NCBI RefSeq assembly: GCF_000712295.1
Contig: NZ_JMKI01000045.1
Span: 1 to 58,091, forward strand
Length of the DNA stretch: 58,091 bases
Direction of reading: 5' to 3'
Source of the DNA: Synergistes jonesii
GTDB taxonomy: Bacteria; Synergistota; Synergistia; Synergistales; Synergistaceae
The notes under the pieces are model-generated. The model was not told the DNA's origin. It saw only the letters and a program-made list of their open reading frames with translations, and did no database searches. The translations under genes and the position numbers were made by a program. Positions 25,546-34,925 of this stretch are shown in pieces (position 1 is the stretch's first letter; the number at the start of each line of letters is the position of its first letter).

Positions 25546-27180
25546 CTACGATTCGCTCTGCATCGCGACGAGATGTTCCGCCCGGTACCTCTGGCGCAGC
25601 TTCGGCTTTTCGATCTTGCCCGTCGGGTTGCGCGGAATCTCCGCGAAGATTATTTTGCGCGGACGCTTGTAGCGCGGCAGGTCGAGGCAGAATCTGGCGA
25701 TCTCCTCCTCGGTGCAGGAGAAGCCCTCTTTTATCTCGACGATCGCGGCCGCTATTTCGCCGAGGCGCGAGTCCGGCAGGCCGATCACGGCGGCGTCCTT
25801 GACGCTCGGATGTGCGCGCAGGAAGTCCTCTATCTGGACGGGGTAGAGGTTTTCGCCGCCGCTGATTATAACGTCCTTCTTGCGGTCGACGAGGTAGATG
25901 AAGCCTTCCTCGTCCTGGCGCGCCATGTCTCCCGTCGAGAGCCAGCCGTCGTGCAGCACCTCCGCCGTCGCCTTCGGGTCTTTATAGTAGCAGGTCATCA
26001 CGCCCGGCCCCTTGACCGCGAGCTCGCCGACGCCGCCGTCCGTTATCGCCTTTCCGTTATCGTCGATTATCTTTGTCTTCCAGCCGTAGCCGGGCACCCC
26101 TATAGCTCCCACCTTGTCGATGTTGCCGGTGCCCAAGTGTACGCAGCCCGGCCCCGTCGATTCCGAGAGGCCGTAGTTCGTGTCGTATCTGTGCTTCGGA
26201 AAGACCCTGCGCCACCTCGCGATGAGGCTCGGCGGCACCGGCTGCGCGCCGATGTGCATCAGCCTCCACTGTGAAAGCTCGTAGTCGTCGAGGTTTATCT
26301 TGCCGGCGTCGATCGCGTCGAGGATGTCCTGCGCCCACGGTACGAGCAGCCAGACGATCGTGCATTTTTCCTTAGAAACGCTTTCGATTATCGTTTTCGG
26401 ATCTGTCCCCTTGAGCAATACTCCTCTGCTGCCGGAGATGAGGCTGCCGAACCAGTGCATCTTCGCTCCTGTGTGATAGAGCGGCGGGATGCAGAGGAAG
26501 ATGTCGCCGCGGCCCTGCCCGTGATGTACCTGCTCCGTCTTGGCCGCGTGCATCAGGCTTTCGTGGTTGTGCAGGATAGCTTTAGGGAAGCCGGTCGTGC
26601 CCGAGGAAAAGTATATAGCGGCGTCGTCTTCGTCGGAAAGGATTATGCGCGGCGGGCAGCTCGAAAGGTTCGAACTGAGGTGCATATAGTTTTCCGCGAA
26701 GCGCGGGCAGCCGTCGCCGGTGAAGAAGCGCAGCTTCACGCGCGGGATCGAGTCGCATATGTCCTCGACGCGTCCGATAAATTCAGGGCCGAAGAAGAGC
26801 GCGTCGACATCGGCGAGCTCGAGGCAGTATTTTATCTCGGCGGCGGTGTAGCGGAAGTTTAGCGGCACGGCGAGCGCACCGGTCTTGAGGATGCCGAAGT
26901 AGAGCGGCAGCCACTCAAGGTTGTTCATCATCAGGATGGCGACCTTGTCGCCCTTTTTTATCCCGCGGGAAAGCAGCAGATTGGCGCAGCGGTTCGCCTT
27001 TTCGTCGAATGCGCCCCACGTTATCTCCCTGCGGTAGCTCTCGGTCGGGCTCGACTCGATGAGCTCGTACTCCTTCCACGTCACGCGGCGTATTTCTTTG
27101 ACCTCGGGGTTGATCTCGACCAGCGCGGTCTCGTTGCAGAATTCTCTCGCGTTTCTTTCCAGCAGATCAGTTATAGGCAT
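25546..27180 (-). CDS. AMP-forming acyl/aryl-CoA ligase
   Basis: 544 aa ANL-superfamily enzyme that activates a carboxylic acid as acyl-AMP and then acyl-CoA. Motifs: the phosphate loop YFSSGTTGFPKAILHNHESL (about 180-199), NYGLSESTGPG (about 330), GWLSTGDMARQDEEGF (about 415-430) and the C-terminal catalytic Lys in PRNPTGKIEKPKLR (about 520). Acyl-chain specificity is not evident. It is the first gene behind a T-box riboswitch whose specifier reads UAC (Tyr), so expression should rise when uncharged tRNA-Tyr accumulates. That suggests activation of an aryl acid such as 4-hydroxyphenylacetate for tyrosine synthesis, rather than fatty acid breakdown. GGGAGGAAAG precedes the ATG. Confidence 0.88.
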   Translation of the reverse strand: MPITDLLERNAREFCNETALVEINPEVKEIRRVTWKEYELIESSPTESYRREITWGAFDEKANRCANLLLSRGIKKGDKVAILMMNNLEWLPLYFGILKTGALAVPLNFRYTAAEIKYCLELADVDALFFGPEFIGRVEDICDSIPRVKLRFFTGDGCPRFAENYMHLSSNLSSCPPRIILSDEDDAAIYFSSGTTGFPKAILHNHESLMHAAKTEQVHHGQGRGDIFLCIPPLYHTGAKMHWFGSLISGSRGVLLKGTDPKTIIESVSKEKCTIVWLLVPWAQDILDAIDAGKINLDDYELSQWRLMHIGAQPVPPSLIARWRRVFPKHRYDTNYGLSESTGPGCVHLGTGNIDKVGAIGVPGYGWKTKIIDDNGKAITDGGVGELAVKGPGVMTCYYKDPKATAEVLHDGWLSTGDMARQDEEGFIYLVDRKKDVIISGGENLYPVQIEDFLRAHPSVKDAAVIGLPDSRLGEIAAAIVEIKEGFSCTEEEIARFCLDLPRYKRPRKIIFAEIPRNPTGKIEKPKLRQRYRAEHLVAMQSES

Positions 27181-27222: not shown

Positions 27223-27490
27223 AAAAAAATCCCGCCCTCCTGCATTCAGAGGACGGGAAAACTTTTACCCGTGGTACCACCTCAGTTTGGCGCTCCCTCG
27301 CGGGACGCGCCCTCGTCGGGTACGGGCGCCGAAGGCCGATACCCTGTCCGCTGTAACGGGCGCGCCCGTCGCCGCCTACTCGAAAAATTCTTTCGGGGCG
27401 CTGCTCTTGAAATGTATTTCGGCCCGTCCGTCTGCCGCCTCGCACCGTCCGGCGGCTCTCTGCAAGGACTGTTCTCGGGCTTACTTCTTT
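27223..27490 (-). promoter_or_regulatory. T-box riboswitch, tyrosine-type specifier (UAC)
   Basis: Minus-strand leader ending about 43 bases before the acyl-CoA ligase. In transcript order it shows GAAGTAAG (start of Stem I, near 27482), the conserved AGAGAGCCG and GGTGCGAGGC elements, then GAAA-TAC-ATTTCAAGAGC with the specifier at 27414-27416. This aligns with GAAA-GGC-AUUCUUGAGC of a known glycine T-box, so the codon is UAC. Next come GAGTAGGCGGCGACGG and CCCGTTAC, and the T-box core GAGGTGGTACCACGGG (near 27284-27268). The UGGU bulge would pair with ACCA-3' and an A discriminator, as in tRNA-Tyr. The terminator is CCCGTCCTC / GGAGGGCGGG plus a T7 run (27257-27223). A possible -35 TTGACA lies at 27554-27549. 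Confidence 0.92.
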
Positions 27491-27715
27491 TCAGTCGTCG
27501 CATTTGCCTTTATTCCACGGTTGATATTTTTGCTCAGAGGCCGGCTTATGTCAAGCCCCCAAAAGAAAACCCGACTTCCCAGGTAAAAAAGAGCGGCCGC
27601 AGTACGGTGGGACGTCCGAAGTCTCTAAGAGTGTTTTACACACCCCTTTGCGCTTGAACTTGACCTCCTTCTTTTCTTCCTGGGGATTTGGTGGATTTGG
27701 GGCGCCTTGACGCCC

Positions 27716-27744
27716 TTGACAATCGAAAGATACGCCGATAGAAT
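27716..27744 (+). promoter_or_regulatory. Sigma-70 promoter of the metYX leader
   Basis: TTGACA (27716-27721), a 17-base spacer, TAGAAT (27739-27744). Transcription should start near 27751, about 28 bases before the leader-peptide ATG. Confidence 0.75.
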
Positions 27745-27778
27745 GTGAGCAATGAATCTGTGAAGGGGGCTTTGCGCG

Positions 27779-27847
27779 ATGATCAACTCATATCCGCTGT
27801 GCGTAATGATGATGTGCGCAAAAAGCAGAGCCCCTGGGGAACAGTAG
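27779..27847 (+). CDS. metYX leader peptide, 22 aa, with Met-Met-Met-Cys
   Basis: ATG at 27779 with AAGGGGGC (27763-27770) 8 bases upstream; stop TAG at 27845. The peptide begins MINSYPL, continues CVMMMCAK and ends SRAPGEQ. Three successive Met codons (27806-27814) are flanked by Cys codons (27800, 27815). It lies between a good promoter and a terminator/antiterminator pair, all upstream of metY. Its expected role is to report Met-tRNA (perhaps also Cys-tRNA) supply through ribosome stalling, not to act as a protein. The same MMMCA coding block occurs in the metN leader. Confidence 0.85.
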   Translation: MINSYPLCVMMMCAKSRAPGEQ

Positions 27848-27903
27848 ACGGAAATTTCGCAACTGTACCGGCGGGCTCTGCTTTTTAGCAGGGCCCGTTT
27901 TTT
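27820..27903 (+). promoter_or_regulatory. metYX attenuator: antiterminator and Rho-independent terminator
   Basis: Terminator: GGGCTCTGC (27873-27881), loop TTTTTA, GCAGGGCCC (27888-27896; one G-U pair), then G and a T6 run. Competing antiterminator: AAAAAGCAGAGCCC (27820-27833), inside the leader-peptide gene, pairs perfectly over 14 bases with GGGCTCTGCTTTTT (27873-27886) and so captures the 5' arm of the terminator. A ribosome stalled on the Met codons leaves at least 27825-27833 free, allowing readthrough. A ribosome that proceeds to the stop at 27845 covers this arm, allowing termination. The mechanism is inferred; the pairings are direct. Confidence 0.85.
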
Positions 27904-27927
27904 ATATTTTTTAAGGAGGAAATCGCC

Positions 27928-29223
27928 GTGAAGGATAATAAAAATTACGGTTTCATGACAAAGGCTCTGCATGCGGGCTGGGAGCGCGACCCGGCGACGG
28001 GCTCGTCCGGGCTGCCGATCTACGCCACGTCGGCCTATCAGTTCAAGGACAGCGCGCAGGCCGCGAGCCTTTTTAAGCTCGAAGAGGAGGGCTATATCTA
28101 CTCGCGCCTGGCCAACCCGACCGTCAAAGCGTTCGAGGACGGGCTGAACGCGCTCGAAGGCGGCTGCGGCGCCATCGCGCTCTCCTCCGGGCAGGCCGCC
28201 TTGGCGCACCTTGTCGCGGCGCTCTGCTCCTCCGGCTCGAACCTCGTCGTCTCGCGCAAGGTCTACGGCGGCACGGTGACGCTGCTACAAAACGTCTTCT
28301 CGCGCTTCGGGATAGAGACGAAGTTCGTCGACAGCGACCATCCCTGTCAGGTCGAAGAGGCGATAGACGACGACACACGCGGGGTGATCACGGAGACCAT
28401 CGGCAACCCGATGATGAACGTCGCGCCTCTCGAAGCTCTCGCGCGCGCCGCGCACCGCCGCGGTGTCCCTCTGATAATCGACAACACCTTCGCGACACCG
28501 GCGCTCTGCCGCCCGATCGAATGGGGGGCGGACGCGGTGGTCTATTCGACGACCAAATACGTCTCCGGCAACGGGAACCTGATAGGCGGCGCCATCGTCG
28601 ACGGCGGCGGCTTCGACTGGCGCGCATACCCGGAAAAATTCCCCGGCCTCGCGCTCCCCGACCCGTCGTACCACGACATAGTATTCGCCGAGAGATACGG
28701 GAGATCGGCGCTCGCGGCCAAGCTGCACTGCTCCGTGCTGCGCGACATGGGCGGCTGTCCGTCAGCCTTCGACGCCTACCTTCTCCACCTTTCGCTTTCG
28801 ACCCTTGCCCTGAGGATGGCGCGCCACAGCGAAAACGGCCTCGCCGTCGCTAAATTCCTTGAAAAACATCCGCAGGTCGAATGGGTGCGCTACCCAGGCC
28901 TTGAAAGCCATCCGCAGAACGACATGGCGAAGGTCTACCTGAAAGACGGCTGCGGCGGAATGATGGCCTTCGGCGTGAAGGGCGGGATCGAAGCCGGGCG
29001 CAAGCTGGTAGACTCTCTTTCGCTGATAGGGCACATGGCGAACCTCGGCCAGACGCGCACGCTGATAATCCACCCAGCGAGTACGACGCACAGCCAGCTC
29101 ACAAGCGGGCAGCGCGCGGAGGCGGGGCTCTCCGACGGGCTGCTGCGCCTTTCCGTCGGGCTGGAGGATGCGGCGGACATCATCACGGACCTTGAAAAGG
29201 GCCTCGACGCGGCCGGAAAATAA
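27928..29223 (+). CDS. metY: O-acetylhomoserine sulfhydrylase (O-acetylhomoserine aminocarboxypropyltransferase)
   Basis: 431 aa PLP enzyme of the Cys/Met metabolism family; forms homocysteine from O-acetylhomoserine and sulfide in the cytoplasm. The PLP lysine is Lys210 in VYSTTKYVSGNG; GKG-type substrate residues and the C-terminal TLIIHPASTTHSQL and GLSDGLLRLSVGLED are family signatures. The length of about 430 aa fits MetY better than MetB or MetC (about 380-400). The start is GTG at 27928 with AAGGAGG 9 bases upstream. metX follows 8 bases after the stop, giving the complete route homoserine to O-acetylhomoserine to homocysteine. Expression is probably set by the upstream Met leader peptide. 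Confidence 0.95.
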   Translation: MKDNKNYGFMTKALHAGWERDPATGSSGLPIYATSAYQFKDSAQAASLFKLEEEGYIYSRLANPTVKAFEDGLNALEGGCGAIALSSGQAALAHLVAALCSSGSNLVVSRKVYGGTVTLLQNVFSRFGIETKFVDSDHPCQVEEAIDDDTRGVITETIGNPMMNVAPLEALARAAHRRGVPLIIDNTFATPALCRPIEWGADAVVYSTTKYVSGNGNLIGGAIVDGGGFDWRAYPEKFPGLALPDPSYHDIVFAERYGRSALAAKLHCSVLRDMGGCPSAFDAYLLHLSLSTLALRMARHSENGLAVAKFLEKHPQVEWVRYPGLESHPQNDMAKVYLKDGCGGMMAFGVKGGIEAGRKLVDSLSLIGHMANLGQTRTLIIHPASTTHSQLTSGQRAEAGLSDGLLRLSVGLEDAADIITDLEKGLDAAGK

Positions 29224-29231
29224 AAAACGAC

Positions 29232-30311
29232 ATGAAAGAAGAGCTATCTTCCGTGGAATTGGAGAATGTGACTCTGCCCTCCGGCGCTCGCTTCGACAGC
29301 CTCACGCAGGCTTACGCGAAGTACGGCGAAATGTCCAGCGACGGCGGCAATGTGATTCTCGTCTGCCACGCGCTGACGGGCAGCCAAAGGCTTACGGGCG
29401 AAAAGCGCGCCGGCGAGCCCGACCCGTGGTGGGGCCCCATCGTGGGGGACGGGCGCGCGCTCGACACGCGCGAATACTGCGTGATCTGCTTCAACAACCT
29501 CGGAAGCCCCTACGGGAGCACCTCCCCGCTCTCGATAAACCCCGCCGACGGCCGCCGCTGGGCGATGAGATTCCCGATCCTCTCGCCGCGCGACGCCGCG
29601 TTCGCTCAGCGGGCCGCGCTCGACGCGATGGGCGTAAAAGAAATTTACGCCGTCGCCGGCGGCTCTCTCGGCGGAATGATAGCCCTCGAGCACGCGGCGT
29701 CGTTCCCCGACAAGACCCCGCGCTGCGCGCTCATCGCCGCGCCGGACCGCCTCTACCCGCAGGCCATCGCCTTCAACGCGGTGCAGCGGCAGAGCATCAT
29801 GGGCGACCCCGAATGGAAAAACGGCGACTACGAAGGCGCGGGCCCGGCCAACGGGCTCGCCGCGGCGAGGATGCTCGCGATGATAACCTACCGCAGCGAG
29901 CAGTCCTTCACGAACCGCTATATGCGTGAAATGGCGCGCGGTACGACGAGCGACTGGAGCGGCGAATTCCAGGTCGAAAGCTATCTGCATCATCACGGGG
30001 AGGCGATAGTGAAGCGCTTCGACGCCAACTGCTACCTATATTTGACGAGGATGATGGACCTGCACGACATAGGGGCCGGGCGGGGCGGGCTGGACGCGGC
30101 GTGGAAGAGTTACGCTGGACGCAGGCTTTTGGGGCTCGGCGTGTCGAGCGACATGCTCTTCCCGAACTGGCAGGTCGAGGAGGCCGTCAGAGCCGCCGCC
30201 AAAAACGGCGTCCGCGCCTATTACGAAGAGATAGAGAGCGAAAACGGGCACGACTCCTTCCTGATAGACTTCGACCAGGTGGACGACTACCTGCGCTCCT
30301 TCCTGCGGTGA
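29232..30311 (+). CDS. metX: Homoserine O-acetyltransferase
   Basis: 359 aa alpha/beta hydrolase-fold acyltransferase of the MetX family, giving O-acetylhomoserine from homoserine and acetyl-CoA. Catalytic triad: Ser145 in AGGSLGGM, Asp307 in SSDMLFP, His340 in NGHDSFL. HALTGSQ near residue 46 and NNLGSPYGSTSP near 88-99 are MetX signatures. Some MetX-like enzymes use succinyl-CoA; the neighbouring MetY favours acetyl transfer. It is the second gene of the metYX unit and ends at a palindromic terminator. Confidence 0.93.
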   Translation: MKEELSSVELENVTLPSGARFDSLTQAYAKYGEMSSDGGNVILVCHALTGSQRLTGEKRAGEPDPWWGPIVGDGRALDTREYCVICFNNLGSPYGSTSPLSINPADGRRWAMRFPILSPRDAAFAQRAALDAMGVKEIYAVAGGSLGGMIALEHAASFPDKTPRCALIAAPDRLYPQAIAFNAVQRQSIMGDPEWKNGDYEGAGPANGLAAARMLAMITYRSEQSFTNRYMREMARGTTSDWSGEFQVESYLHHHGEAIVKRFDANCYLYLTRMMDLHDIGAGRGGLDAAWKSYAGRRLLGLGVSSDMLFPNWQVEEAVRAAAKNGVRAYYEEIESENGHDSFLIDFDQVDDYLRSFLR

Positions 30312-32232: not shown

Positions 32233-33012
32233 TTAGAACGCGGGGACAATTCCCTTCGGCACGAGCTCTTTGTTGATGAAGTCCTTTACTTCTTTTGAGT
32301 TCGAGGCCTTGACGAGGGCCTTTATCGCCGGCGAGTCTTTCTCCTCGGCGCGCACGGCGACGACGTTGGCGTAGGGGCTGTCCTTGCCTTCAATGATTAT
32401 CGCGTCTTTGGCAGGGATGAGCCCCGCTTCGACCGCGAAGTTCGTGTTTATGACCGCCGCGTCGACATCCTGCAGCGTGCGCGGGAGCTGCGCCGCGTCG
32501 AGCTCGCGTATCTTGAAGTTCTTCGGGTTGTCTGTGACGTCCTTGGCCGTCACTAGTTCCCCGGCCTTGACCTTGACGAGTCCGCCCTTCTCAAGCAGGC
32601 GGAGGGCGCGCGCGCAGTTAGTCGCGTCGTTCGGTATCGCGATCTGGGCGCCGTTTTTCAGCTCGTCGAGCTTGCCTATCTTCTTCGAGTACAAGCCAAG
32701 CGGCTCGATGTGGATCTTCGCGACCCAGACGAGCTTCAGACCCTTTTCTTTGACCGTGTTCTCCAGATAGGGGATGTGCTGGAAGAAGTTGGCGTCGAGC
32801 GACTTTTCCGCGAGCGCCGTGTTCGGCGTCACGTAGTCGGTGAATTCGACTATTTTCAGCTCGTAGCCGTCTTTGGCCAGGAGCTGCTTTACGACGTTCA
32901 TGATGTCCTTGTGCGGGAACGGCGTGACGCCTATTTTGATTTCCTTGCCGGCCGCGAAGGCCGCAGCGGGTATCAGCAGTGCCGCTATCAGTGCGAGTGC
33001 GATTTTCTTCAT
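32233..33012 (-). CDS. metQ: Methionine ABC transporter, substrate-binding protein
   Basis: 259 aa NlpA/MetQ-family binding protein delivering L-methionine (possibly also D-methionine) to MetNI. Typical blocks are KIGVTPFPHKDIM (about 25-38), FTDYVTPNTALAEKSLDANFFQH in parts (about 57-79), IAIPNDATNCARALRLLEKGGLV in parts and AVINTNFAVEAGL. The signal peptide ends AAAFAAG and has no lipobox Cys, whereas many MetQ proteins are lipoproteins; this copy should therefore be a soluble periplasmic protein, consistent with an outer membrane. Last gene of metNIQ, 88 bases after metI, with AAGGAGAAG before the ATG. Confidence 0.93.
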   Translation of the reverse strand: MKKIALALIAALLIPAAAFAAGKEIKIGVTPFPHKDIMNVVKQLLAKDGYELKIVEFTDYVTPNTALAEKSLDANFFQHIPYLENTVKEKGLKLVWVAKIHIEPLGLYSKKIGKLDELKNGAQIAIPNDATNCARALRLLEKGGLVKVKAGELVTAKDVTDNPKNFKIRELDAAQLPRTLQDVDAAVINTNFAVEAGLIPAKDAIIIEGKDSPYANVVAVRAEEKDSPAIKALVKASNSKEVKDFINKELVPKGIVPAF

Positions 33013-33100
33013 TTTCTCTTCTCCTTGTCGTTATTTTTTAGACTCCGGGGCGCGCTGTGCAGAAAATTTTCATATCATACTCTATCGCAGACCGCCTCCG

Positions 33101-33736
33101 TTATCTGATTTTTTCGTATATGTAATTGCCTATGTACTGAATCACCTGGACAATTACTATCAGAATCGCGACGGAGTAGATCATAACGTCCGTCTGGAAT
33201 CTGTTGTAGCCGTATTTTATCGCGAGGTCCCCGAGCCCCCCGCCTCCGACGACTCCGGCCATCGCGGAGTAGCCCAGCAGGTTTATCGCGACGACGGCCC
33301 AGTTGAGGACGATCGAGGGCATCGCCTCTTTTATCATCACGCCGAAGATTATCTGTCCCGTCGACGCGCCGAAGGATTTCGCCGCTTCGACGACGCCGCG
33401 GTCGACTTCAAGAAGACTGCCTTCCATAAGGCGCGCCACGAAGGGCGTCGCCGCTATCGTCAGCGGCACGATCGACGCCGTGCTCCCGATCGAAGTGCCG
33501 GCGATGAGGCGCGTCAGCGGGATTATCGCGATGAGCAGTATTATGAAGGGGAATGAGCGCAGCAGGTTGACGGCGGCGTCGAGCGCCCTGTAGACCGGCC
33601 TGTTCGGCGAGAGCCCCGCGGGGCCCGTCATGATCATCAGCACCGCGACGCAGGATCCGAAAATACCTGAGAAAAAGGTCGAAACGGCCACCATGTAGAG
33701 CGTTTCCCAAAGAGCCGCCAGGAGTTCACTGCCCAT
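33101..33736 (-). CDS. metI: Methionine ABC transporter permease
   Basis: 211 aa, five predicted membrane helices, with the MetI signature region MVAVSTFFSGIFGSCVAVLM and the EAA-type cytoplasmic loop EVDRGVVEAAKSFGASTGQIIF (about 130-150) that contacts the ATPase. It overlaps the 3' end of metN by 11 bases, indicating translational coupling. Confidence 0.93.
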   Translation of the reverse strand: MGSELLAALWETLYMVAVSTFFSGIFGSCVAVLMIMTGPAGLSPNRPVYRALDAAVNLLRSFPFIILLIAIIPLTRLIAGTSIGSTASIVPLTIAATPFVARLMEGSLLEVDRGVVEAAKSFGASTGQIIFGVMIKEAMPSIVLNWAVVAINLLGYSAMAGVVGGGGLGDLAIKYGYNRFQTDVMIYSVAILIVIVQVIQYIGNYIYEKIR

Positions 33737-34694
33737 TCTTCATTACCTCCCAATACATATTGTTTTCGCCGAGCCACTTTTCGATCTTCGGAACGTCCCC
33801 ATCCGCGACGTTTATGATGAGAAAGCCCATCACCGTATCGCGGTATCTTTCGATGCGCCCCCCGACGATCGAGAATTTGACGTCCAGCTCGCGCGCCATG
33901 TTAGCGATGATGCCCTCGTTCGCGACCTCGCGCGGGAACATCAGCCTGATGTTGATGCCCGACGGTATCACCGCGTAGTCGTCCGTGATAAGCTTGCGAA
34001 GCTCCGGCCCCGGCGCCAGGAAGAGCTTCTCCGTGTCGCCGGAAGCTACGATTTTTCCTCCGTCCAGTATGATGACCTTGTTGCAGATCATCTTGACGAC
34101 CTCCATCTGGTGCGTCACTACGACGATCGTCACGTCGAGCTTTTTGTTTATGTCCATCAGCAGCTCGAGAATGGAGATCGTCGTCTTCGGGTCGAGCGCG
34201 GAGGTCGCTTCGTCGCAGAGAAGTATCTCGGGGTTCAGCGCGAGCGCCCTCGCTATGCCGACGCGCTGCTTCTGCCCGCCGCTCAGGTCGCGCACCTTCT
34301 CATGTTTTTTGCCTGTGAGCCCGACGAGTTCGAGCAGCTCGTCGGCGCGCTTCTCCGCGTCCGCCTTGGGCGTGCCCCAGACCTTCAGCGGAAAGAGGAT
34401 GTTTTCGAAGACGTCCTTCCTGTTCATCAGGTTGAAGTTCTGGAAGATCATCCCCATGTCGCGGCGCAGCAGCTTCAGCTCGCGTTCGCCGAGCTCCTTG
34501 ACCTCTTTGCCCTTTACGCGCACGCTGCCTCCGCCGTAGCTTTCGAGGCCGTTCATACAGCGCAGCAGAGTCGATTTTCCGGCGCCGGAGTGACCGACTA
34601 TGCCGAAGACGTCGCCCTTGCGCACTTCGAGGGAAATGTCCGAGAGCACCTTCTGCTCGCCGTAATATTTCCCCAAATCGTGAATCTCGATCAT
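33726..34694 (-). CDS. metN: Methionine ABC transporter ATPase with NIL domain
   Basis: 322 aa. The ABC domain (1-240) has Walker A GHSGAGKST (about 34-42), Q-loop IFQNFNLM, signature LSGGQKQR and Walker B ILLCDEATSALDP. The C-terminal NIL ligand-binding domain (about 250-320: IRLMFPREVANEGIIANMA) is where methionine trans-inhibits transport in MetN. It drives methionine uptake with MetI and MetQ. AAGGGGAG lies 6 bases before the ATG. The gene is preceded by a leader peptide and terminator that should attenuate the whole operon when methionine is plentiful. Confidence 0.95.
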   Translation of the reverse strand: MIEIHDLGKYYGEQKVLSDISLEVRKGDVFGIVGHSGAGKSTLLRCMNGLESYGGGSVRVKGKEVKELGERELKLLRRDMGMIFQNFNLMNRKDVFENILFPLKVWGTPKADAEKRADELLELVGLTGKKHEKVRDLSGGQKQRVGIARALALNPEILLCDEATSALDPKTTISILELLMDINKKLDVTIVVVTHQMEVVKMICNKVIILDGGKIVASGDTEKLFLAPGPELRKLITDDYAVIPSGINIRLMFPREVANEGIIANMARELDVKFSIVGGRIERYRDTVMGFLIINVADGDVPKIEKWLGENNMYWEVMKNGQ

Positions 34695-34720: not shown

Positions 34721-34809
34721 AAAAAAGACCGGAACTCGAACGGCCCCGGTCTTATGATTTCTTTTCCCGCACGACGCGCTCAGGCGTCCGGCAAATCACA
34801 AGAGGAGCC
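34721..34809 (-). promoter_or_regulatory. metNIQ attenuator: terminator and candidate antiterminator
   Basis: Minus-strand terminator: AAGACCGG (34753-34746), 13-base loop, CCGGTCTT (34732-34725), then a continuous T-run to 34721, 27 bases before metN. Candidate antiterminator: GGCTCCTCTT (34809-34800), 15 bases after the last leader Met codon, can pair with AAGA and GGGGCC of AAGACCGGGGCC (34753-34742), leaving CC bulged and one G-U pair, so it competes for the 5' arm of the terminator. The terminator is clear; the antiterminator is weaker than in metYX and should be folded. Confidence 0.75.
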
Positions 34810-34866
34810 ACACGCGAAAGCGCACATCATCATGCTGTCTGCGATATATCCAGTTAAACGCGCCAT
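34780..34866 (-). CDS. metNIQ leader peptide, 28 aa, with Met-Met-Met-Cys
   Basis: ATG at 34866 with AAGGAGGAG (34879-34871) upstream, stop at 34780. The peptide begins MARLTGYIAD, continues SMMMCAFACG and ends SSCDLPDA. The three Met codons (34833-34825) are followed by Cys codons at positions 15, 19 and 23. The 14 bases ATGATGATGTGCGC are identical to those in the metYX leader, though the rest of the two peptides differs, which points to selection on this block. It should act as a sensor of Met-tRNA (and possibly Cys-tRNA) charging. The frame is open further upstream to 34971, but the strong ribosome-binding site fixes this start. Confidence 0.85.
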   Translation of the reverse strand: MARLTGYIADSMMMCAFACGSSCDLPDA

Positions 34867-34896: not shown

Positions 34897-34925
34897 ATTG
34901 TAGTAAGTCGGCGCGGAATTGTCAA
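34897..34925 (-). promoter_or_regulatory. Sigma-70 promoter of the metNIQ leader
   Basis: On the minus strand TTGACA (34925-34920), 17-base spacer, TACAAT (34902-34897), about 30 bases before the leader-peptide ATG. Layout matches the metYX promoter. Confidence 0.75.

Follow-up and report, generated by a model that had tools for sequence, protein, structure and literature searches.

A 22-codon frame with three consecutive Met codons precedes metY and metX in the 58,091-nucleotide stretch of Synergistes jonesii DNA analysed here (the window), raising the question of whether translation of a short peptide could link methionine supply to transcription of these genes. Methionine has so far been largely missing among the amino acids sensed by leader peptides, and it is a special case: initiator tRNA shares the Met pool, and a sensor has to halt elongation while initiation continues. 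No match to the SAM-I riboswitch (RF00162) was obtained in the window or in the whole genome to which it belongs, no T-box (RF00230) was matched in the metY leader and no Rfam family matched either this leader or its sister leaders. The only T-box in the window lies divergent from metY (Table 1), and its register to the Rfam consensus suggests, by inference, a UAC (Tyr) specifier. The metYX leader is interpreted here as a ribosome-mediated transcription attenuator of the trp/his kind with Met and, probably, Cys as the sensing codons, a reading to which we assign a probability of roughly 85% from sequence comparison, without expression, ribosome or readthrough data.

Organization of the metYX leader

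The initial annotation of this locus had described a TTGACA-17-TAGAAT promoter, a Met-run frame with a strong ribosome-binding site, a perfect 14-bp antiterminator and a 9-bp terminator with a T run. The first three were confirmed (Table 1): promoter-like sites occur at only 0.2 per region when the leader region is shuffled, GGGGG lies 9 nt 5' of the leader ATG, and segments 2 and 3 are exactly complementary over 14 nt. The terminator and its T run are also present, but the stem is 12 bp rather than 9 bp in length. RNA folding gave -32.9 kcal/mol for the antiterminator hairpin (27825-27888; z -5.7 versus shuffles) and -23.7 kcal/mol for the terminator (z -6.9 versus shuffles), with a z of -4.3 for the entire leader. 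One pairing had been missed, that of the leader ribosome-binding site region (segment 1) with the core of segment 2.

Table 1. Positions of leader elements and associated genes in the window
Feature	Position	Strand	Remarks
Promoter of metYX leader, sigma-70 type, TTGACA-17-TAGAAT	27716..27744	+	11/12 matches
Segment 1, leader ribosome-binding site GGGGGCTTTGC	27765..27775	+	Complementary to segment 2
Leader peptide frame, 22 codons, MINSYPLCVMMMCAKSRAPGEQ and stop	27779..27847	+	Conserved in relatives
Putative sensing codons Met-Met-Met-Cys (ATGATGATGTGC)	27806..27817	+	
Met codons of metYX leader, ATGATGATG			
Segment 2	27820..27833	+	Core GCAGAGCCC 27825-27833; within leader frame; predicted partner segment 1 or segment 3
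Segment 3	27873..27886	+	Core GGGCTCTGC 27873-27881; predicted to form the antiterminator by pairing with segment 2 or the terminator by pairing with segment 4
Intrinsic terminator	27871..27903	+	12-bp stem 27871-27882 with 27887-27898, then T run 27898-27903
metY, O-acetylhomoserine sulfhydrylase	27928..29223	+	TIGR01326 above cut-off
metX, homoserine O-acetyltransferase	29232..30311	+	NF001209 above cut-off
Promoter of metNIQ leader, TTGACA-17-TACAAT	34897..34925	-	Read directly
Second leader frame, MARLTGYIADSMMMCAFACGSSCDLPDA and stop	34780..34866	-	Met run and Cys 34833-34822
Terminator of metNIQ leader (GACCGGGGCC...GGTC, T run)	34721..34756	-	Helix covaries in relatives
metN-metI-metQ, methionine ABC importer	32233..34694	-	Divergent from metYX; NIL domain, MetI and MetQ models
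T-box leader (RF00230)	27246-27507	-	112 bits; before acyl-CoA ligase gene 25546-27180

Related leaders in the same genome and in other bacteria

A leader of the same kind, also missing from the initial annotation, was found on the other strand of the window upstream of the metNIQ importer genes, where the frame is again preceded by a strong ribosome-binding site (Table 1). The metY and metNIQ leaders have in common a 14-nt string, ATGATGATGTGCGC, that occurs nowhere else in the 2.74-Mb genome. Another metQ, on a different contig (C36), has a leader of its own, MKSIHGNASIMCMMMRSCGGSSPQRSGA, the third identified here.

When genomes of the phylum were searched with an MMMC-leader pattern, matches were obtained in 62 of 188, versus three with the reversed pattern used as control. 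Seventy-three leaders located directly 5' of met genes were fetched and their downstream genes assigned by tblastn as metN (26), metY (25), metQ (20) or metX (2); these leaders are related, and the counts do not represent independent events. Similar promoters are present 5' of 58 of them and a strong terminator in nearly all. A screen of regions upstream of metY in relatives that required only MM in a short frame yielded ten Met-cluster frames, nine with MMMC and one with MMIMC. The leader is absent, having been lost, in some genera. Upstream of metY in one genome (G011, locus L140) a natural deletion has removed the leader start and the Met codons together with most of segment 2, with promoter and terminator kept. 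Leaders were also found before metN, metA and metY in Oscillospiraceae; eight pattern matches in 348 genomes of Lachnospiraceae (the family of G188) included none resembling a Met leader. A scan of genome contigs returned mostly chance matches, those at L169, L193 and L247 being real.

Absence of the Met-rich frame or of the competing helices from relatives had been named as grounds for refuting attenuation by a Met leader peptide. The Met frame, the Met-to-stop spacing and the competing helices are instead kept across many genera and paralogous operons, and this comparative evidence supports the attenuation reading, in which stalling and the switch itself are inferred.

Spacing and RNA pairing of the leaders

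The position of the Met run relative to the leader stop codon is tightly held, with a mean of 13.0 residues between them (SD 1.6; 12-15 residues in 59 of 72 leaders), and the N-terminal stretch before the run is looser (mean 12.0, SD 2.9). This difference bears on the possibility that the MMMC residues act as a nascent-chain arrest peptide, stalling the ribosome in response to a small molecule (SAM or free Met) and not to uncharged tRNA. Such a peptide could account for the short, nearly invariant residue motif and its conserved Cys, but the free variation in N-terminal residues and length (6-20 residues before MMM), together with a Met/Cys order that differs between leaders, argues against it and makes it an unlikely explanation; known arrest peptides require conserved tunnel-lining residues.

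Between the third Met codon and the first base of segment 2 to pair with segment 3 the median distance is 13 nt; by established toeprint geometry, this is about where the front of a ribosome would lie if its A site held that codon. Judged on geometry alone, the spacing would expose segment 2 when the ribosome stalls and place it under a ribosome that has reached the stop codon. Synonymous randomisation, in which the codons after Cys were shuffled among synonyms with the peptide unchanged, placed the native 2:3 pairing among the best 5% for 45 of 73 leaders, and the native 1:2 pairing for 30 of 73, against an expectation of roughly four in each case. As judged from these predicted pairings, codon choice in the leaders favours RNA pairing (2:3 and 1:2) beyond the needs of the peptide. 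Of the 73 leaders, 63 have an anti-Shine-Dalgarno tetramer in segment 2, downstream of the Met run; the stretch of equal length before the run has one in a single leader. The predicted organization resembles that of trp in having four segments, with the ribosome-binding site of the leader itself serving as segment 1. In the metN terminator helix both partners have changed in 7 of the 10 pairs, a value reached by none of 500 shuffles; the 2:3 helix is retained in 96% of cells with modest covariation, partly because it sits inside codons.

Equilibrium folding with a ribosome placed on the Met codons produced a switch in 12 of 73 leaders, the terminator remaining dominant in most. Pairing in the absence of segment 4 was used in place of this test, and under these conditions the probability of segment 3 pairing with segment 2 had a mean of 0.74, versus 0.50 in synonymous versions. 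Since the terminator wins at equilibrium, the attenuator model needs co-transcriptional kinetics like those of classical attenuators, with the 2:3 helix established before segment 4 has been synthesised. The very high stability of the terminator in every state at equilibrium also fits a reading in which the leader acts mainly on translation, or one in which a constitutive terminator is accompanied by an incidental frame. The T run lies 24 nt before metY, however, and the helices do not include the metY ribosome-binding site; as the Met frame, the spacing and the synonymous-site pairing are moreover conserved, we consider such an arrangement very improbable.

Proposed attenuation mechanism

In the attenuator model, ample charged Met-tRNA (and Cys-tRNA) would allow the ribosome to reach the leader stop codon and cover segment 2, whereupon segments 3 and 4 would pair and transcription would end before metY. 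Shortage of Met or Cys would stall the ribosome on the MMMC codons with its leading edge just 5' of segment 2, the 2:3 helix would then form as RNA polymerase emerges, the terminator would be pre-empted and metYX would be transcribed. Without a translating ribosome, segment 2 would be expected to pair with segment 1, leaving the terminator free. A consideration against this model is that initiator fMet-tRNA also falls during Met starvation, so that fewer ribosomes should initiate on the leader; Met leaders make this question of initiation versus elongation testable.

Cysteine as a probable second sensed amino acid

The initial annotation had taken Met alone to be sensed. The Met codons are borne out by the conserved MMMC frame, but restriction to Met is not, as cysteine is very likely read too. 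To avoid a bias toward Cys, regions preceding metQ or metN were selected through the MetQ family alone; these contained twelve Met-cluster leader candidates (two without a recognisable ribosome-binding site), with a Met-Cys dipeptide in 11. Two leaders (in genomes G172 and G017) have a Met run reduced to MMC yet retain the Cys, and in the leader IMCMMMR the Cys has been moved, not lost. Outside the leader core, Cys and Met account for 4.5% and 6.3% of residues, respectively, compared with 0.9% and 2.0% for the proteins encoded downstream, and leader Cys codons are TGC in 69 cases and TGT in six. The Oscillospiraceae leaders, among them MMDMMMCMPMCMCM, MMMCMCCYMCMPC, MMNMMMCMPMGMCM and MMMCMPMCMCM, are often richer still in Met and Cys. 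With Cys a near-constant partner of Met, in Oscillospiraceae as well, sensing is inferred to be probably bivalent (Met and Cys), bivalent control being the simplest reading of such a mixture, as for thrL with its multi-amino-acid control by Thr and Ile.

The Cys codon may nevertheless be kept for spacing, codon context or ancestry and only Met be sensed, an alternative that we rate below even odds and do not dismiss. The downstream genes are methionine genes, Arg follows MMM in a few leaders (CGC 4/81), the G021 leader MYMMMRGGCG lacks a Met-Cys dipeptide, and cysE is present in the genome of the window, so that Cys need not come from Met. This alternative is harder to reconcile with Cys being kept in the MMC leaders, shifted in IMCMMMR and enriched outside the core, with the same Met-Cys mixture in Oscillospiraceae and with the published Streptomyces lividans metL, which reads CMCRRMC (PMC8079986). 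One rationale for bivalent sensing, that Cys is made only from Met, was rejected in view of the cysE match (204.7 bits, just below the curated cut-off).

Leaders downstream of SAM-I riboswitches

Ten of the fetched loci, representing eight genomes or more, have a SAM-I aptamer upstream in the same orientation (70.8-90.5 bits), and in these the riboswitch has its own terminator and is directly upstream of the leader. At one locus (L087) the leader ribosome-binding site lies a few bases after the T run of the riboswitch terminator, leaving no space for a promoter, and the gap is nearly as tight at two others (L102 and L132). Riboswitch and leader probably form two serial checkpoints on one transcript in some relatives, as far as can be judged from their arrangement. 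On such a transcript, RNA polymerase would face termination under SAM control first and under Met/Cys control second, and the tandem would constitute a natural two-input gate for both pathway end products. We incline, by somewhat more than an even chance, to the broader view that an undescribed, widespread class of bivalent Met/Cys attenuators governs methionine uptake and homocysteine synthesis across the phylum and in Oscillospiraceae, with several operons stacked behind SAM-I so that a SAM checkpoint is followed by a charged-tRNA checkpoint.

Comparison with known systems

The mechanism of leader-peptide attenuation is itself known. Like the trp, his, thr and ilv attenuators of Proteobacteria, the leaders described here combine a short frame rich in codons for the pathway product with alternative 2:3 and 3:4 hairpins and an intrinsic terminator. 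They differ in that Met and Cys are sensed (inferred), in that segment 1 is their own ribosome-binding site and in that they occur in another phylum and may follow a SAM-I riboswitch. The SAM-I riboswitch and the T-box act on genes of the same regulon, also through intrinsic termination, but employ a ligand-binding aptamer or a tRNA-binding RNA, whereas the present leaders would act through translation of a frame.

A Met leader had been regarded in the initial annotation as unusual, but such a leader is not unprecedented: one, metL, was proposed earlier for metNIQ of S. lividans (PMC8079986). This Met/Cys-rich leader, MSTTSDRTPATEATTTPGARCMCRRMCAF, likewise precedes metNIQ, but its mRNA is leaderless with no clear intrinsic terminator, the authors point to Met and Thr and not to Cys, and the proposal concerns one species without comparative support (PMC8079986). 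No other Met-leader precedent was found in the open-licence literature, and reports in subscription journals may have been missed. In Actinobacteria, Cys-codon leader peptides precede cys operons (PMC1262725); these are also Cys-codon frames before sulfur amino acid genes, but their Cys runs lie near the stop codon and no terminator was found (PMC1262725). No methionine leader was found in that Actinobacteria survey (PMC1262725), and none is mentioned in the main text, at least, of a broad attenuator survey. The new elements are thus Met/Cys sensing, use of the ribosome-binding site as segment 1, conservation across the phylum and beyond, and stacking in some cases on a riboswitch, with function inferred throughout.

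Other genes preceded by MMMC leaders

Leaders of this kind may also flag new members of the methionine regulon. In two genomes (G077 and G038, loci L059 and L044) an MMMC leader precedes a protein of approximately 420 residues, and the two proteins look alike; the L059 protein, when scanned, had no Pfam, NCBIfam or PDB match. Both are candidate members of a methionine/cysteine regulon. MMMC leaders in two further genomes (G126 and G128, loci L065 and L103) are followed by a solute-binding protein of the amino-acid ABC type (SBP_bac_3) that may serve in sulfur amino acid import; at L058 and L105 (genomes G076 and G133), the genes after the leaders encode a class V aminotransferase and a protein resembling CoA ligases.
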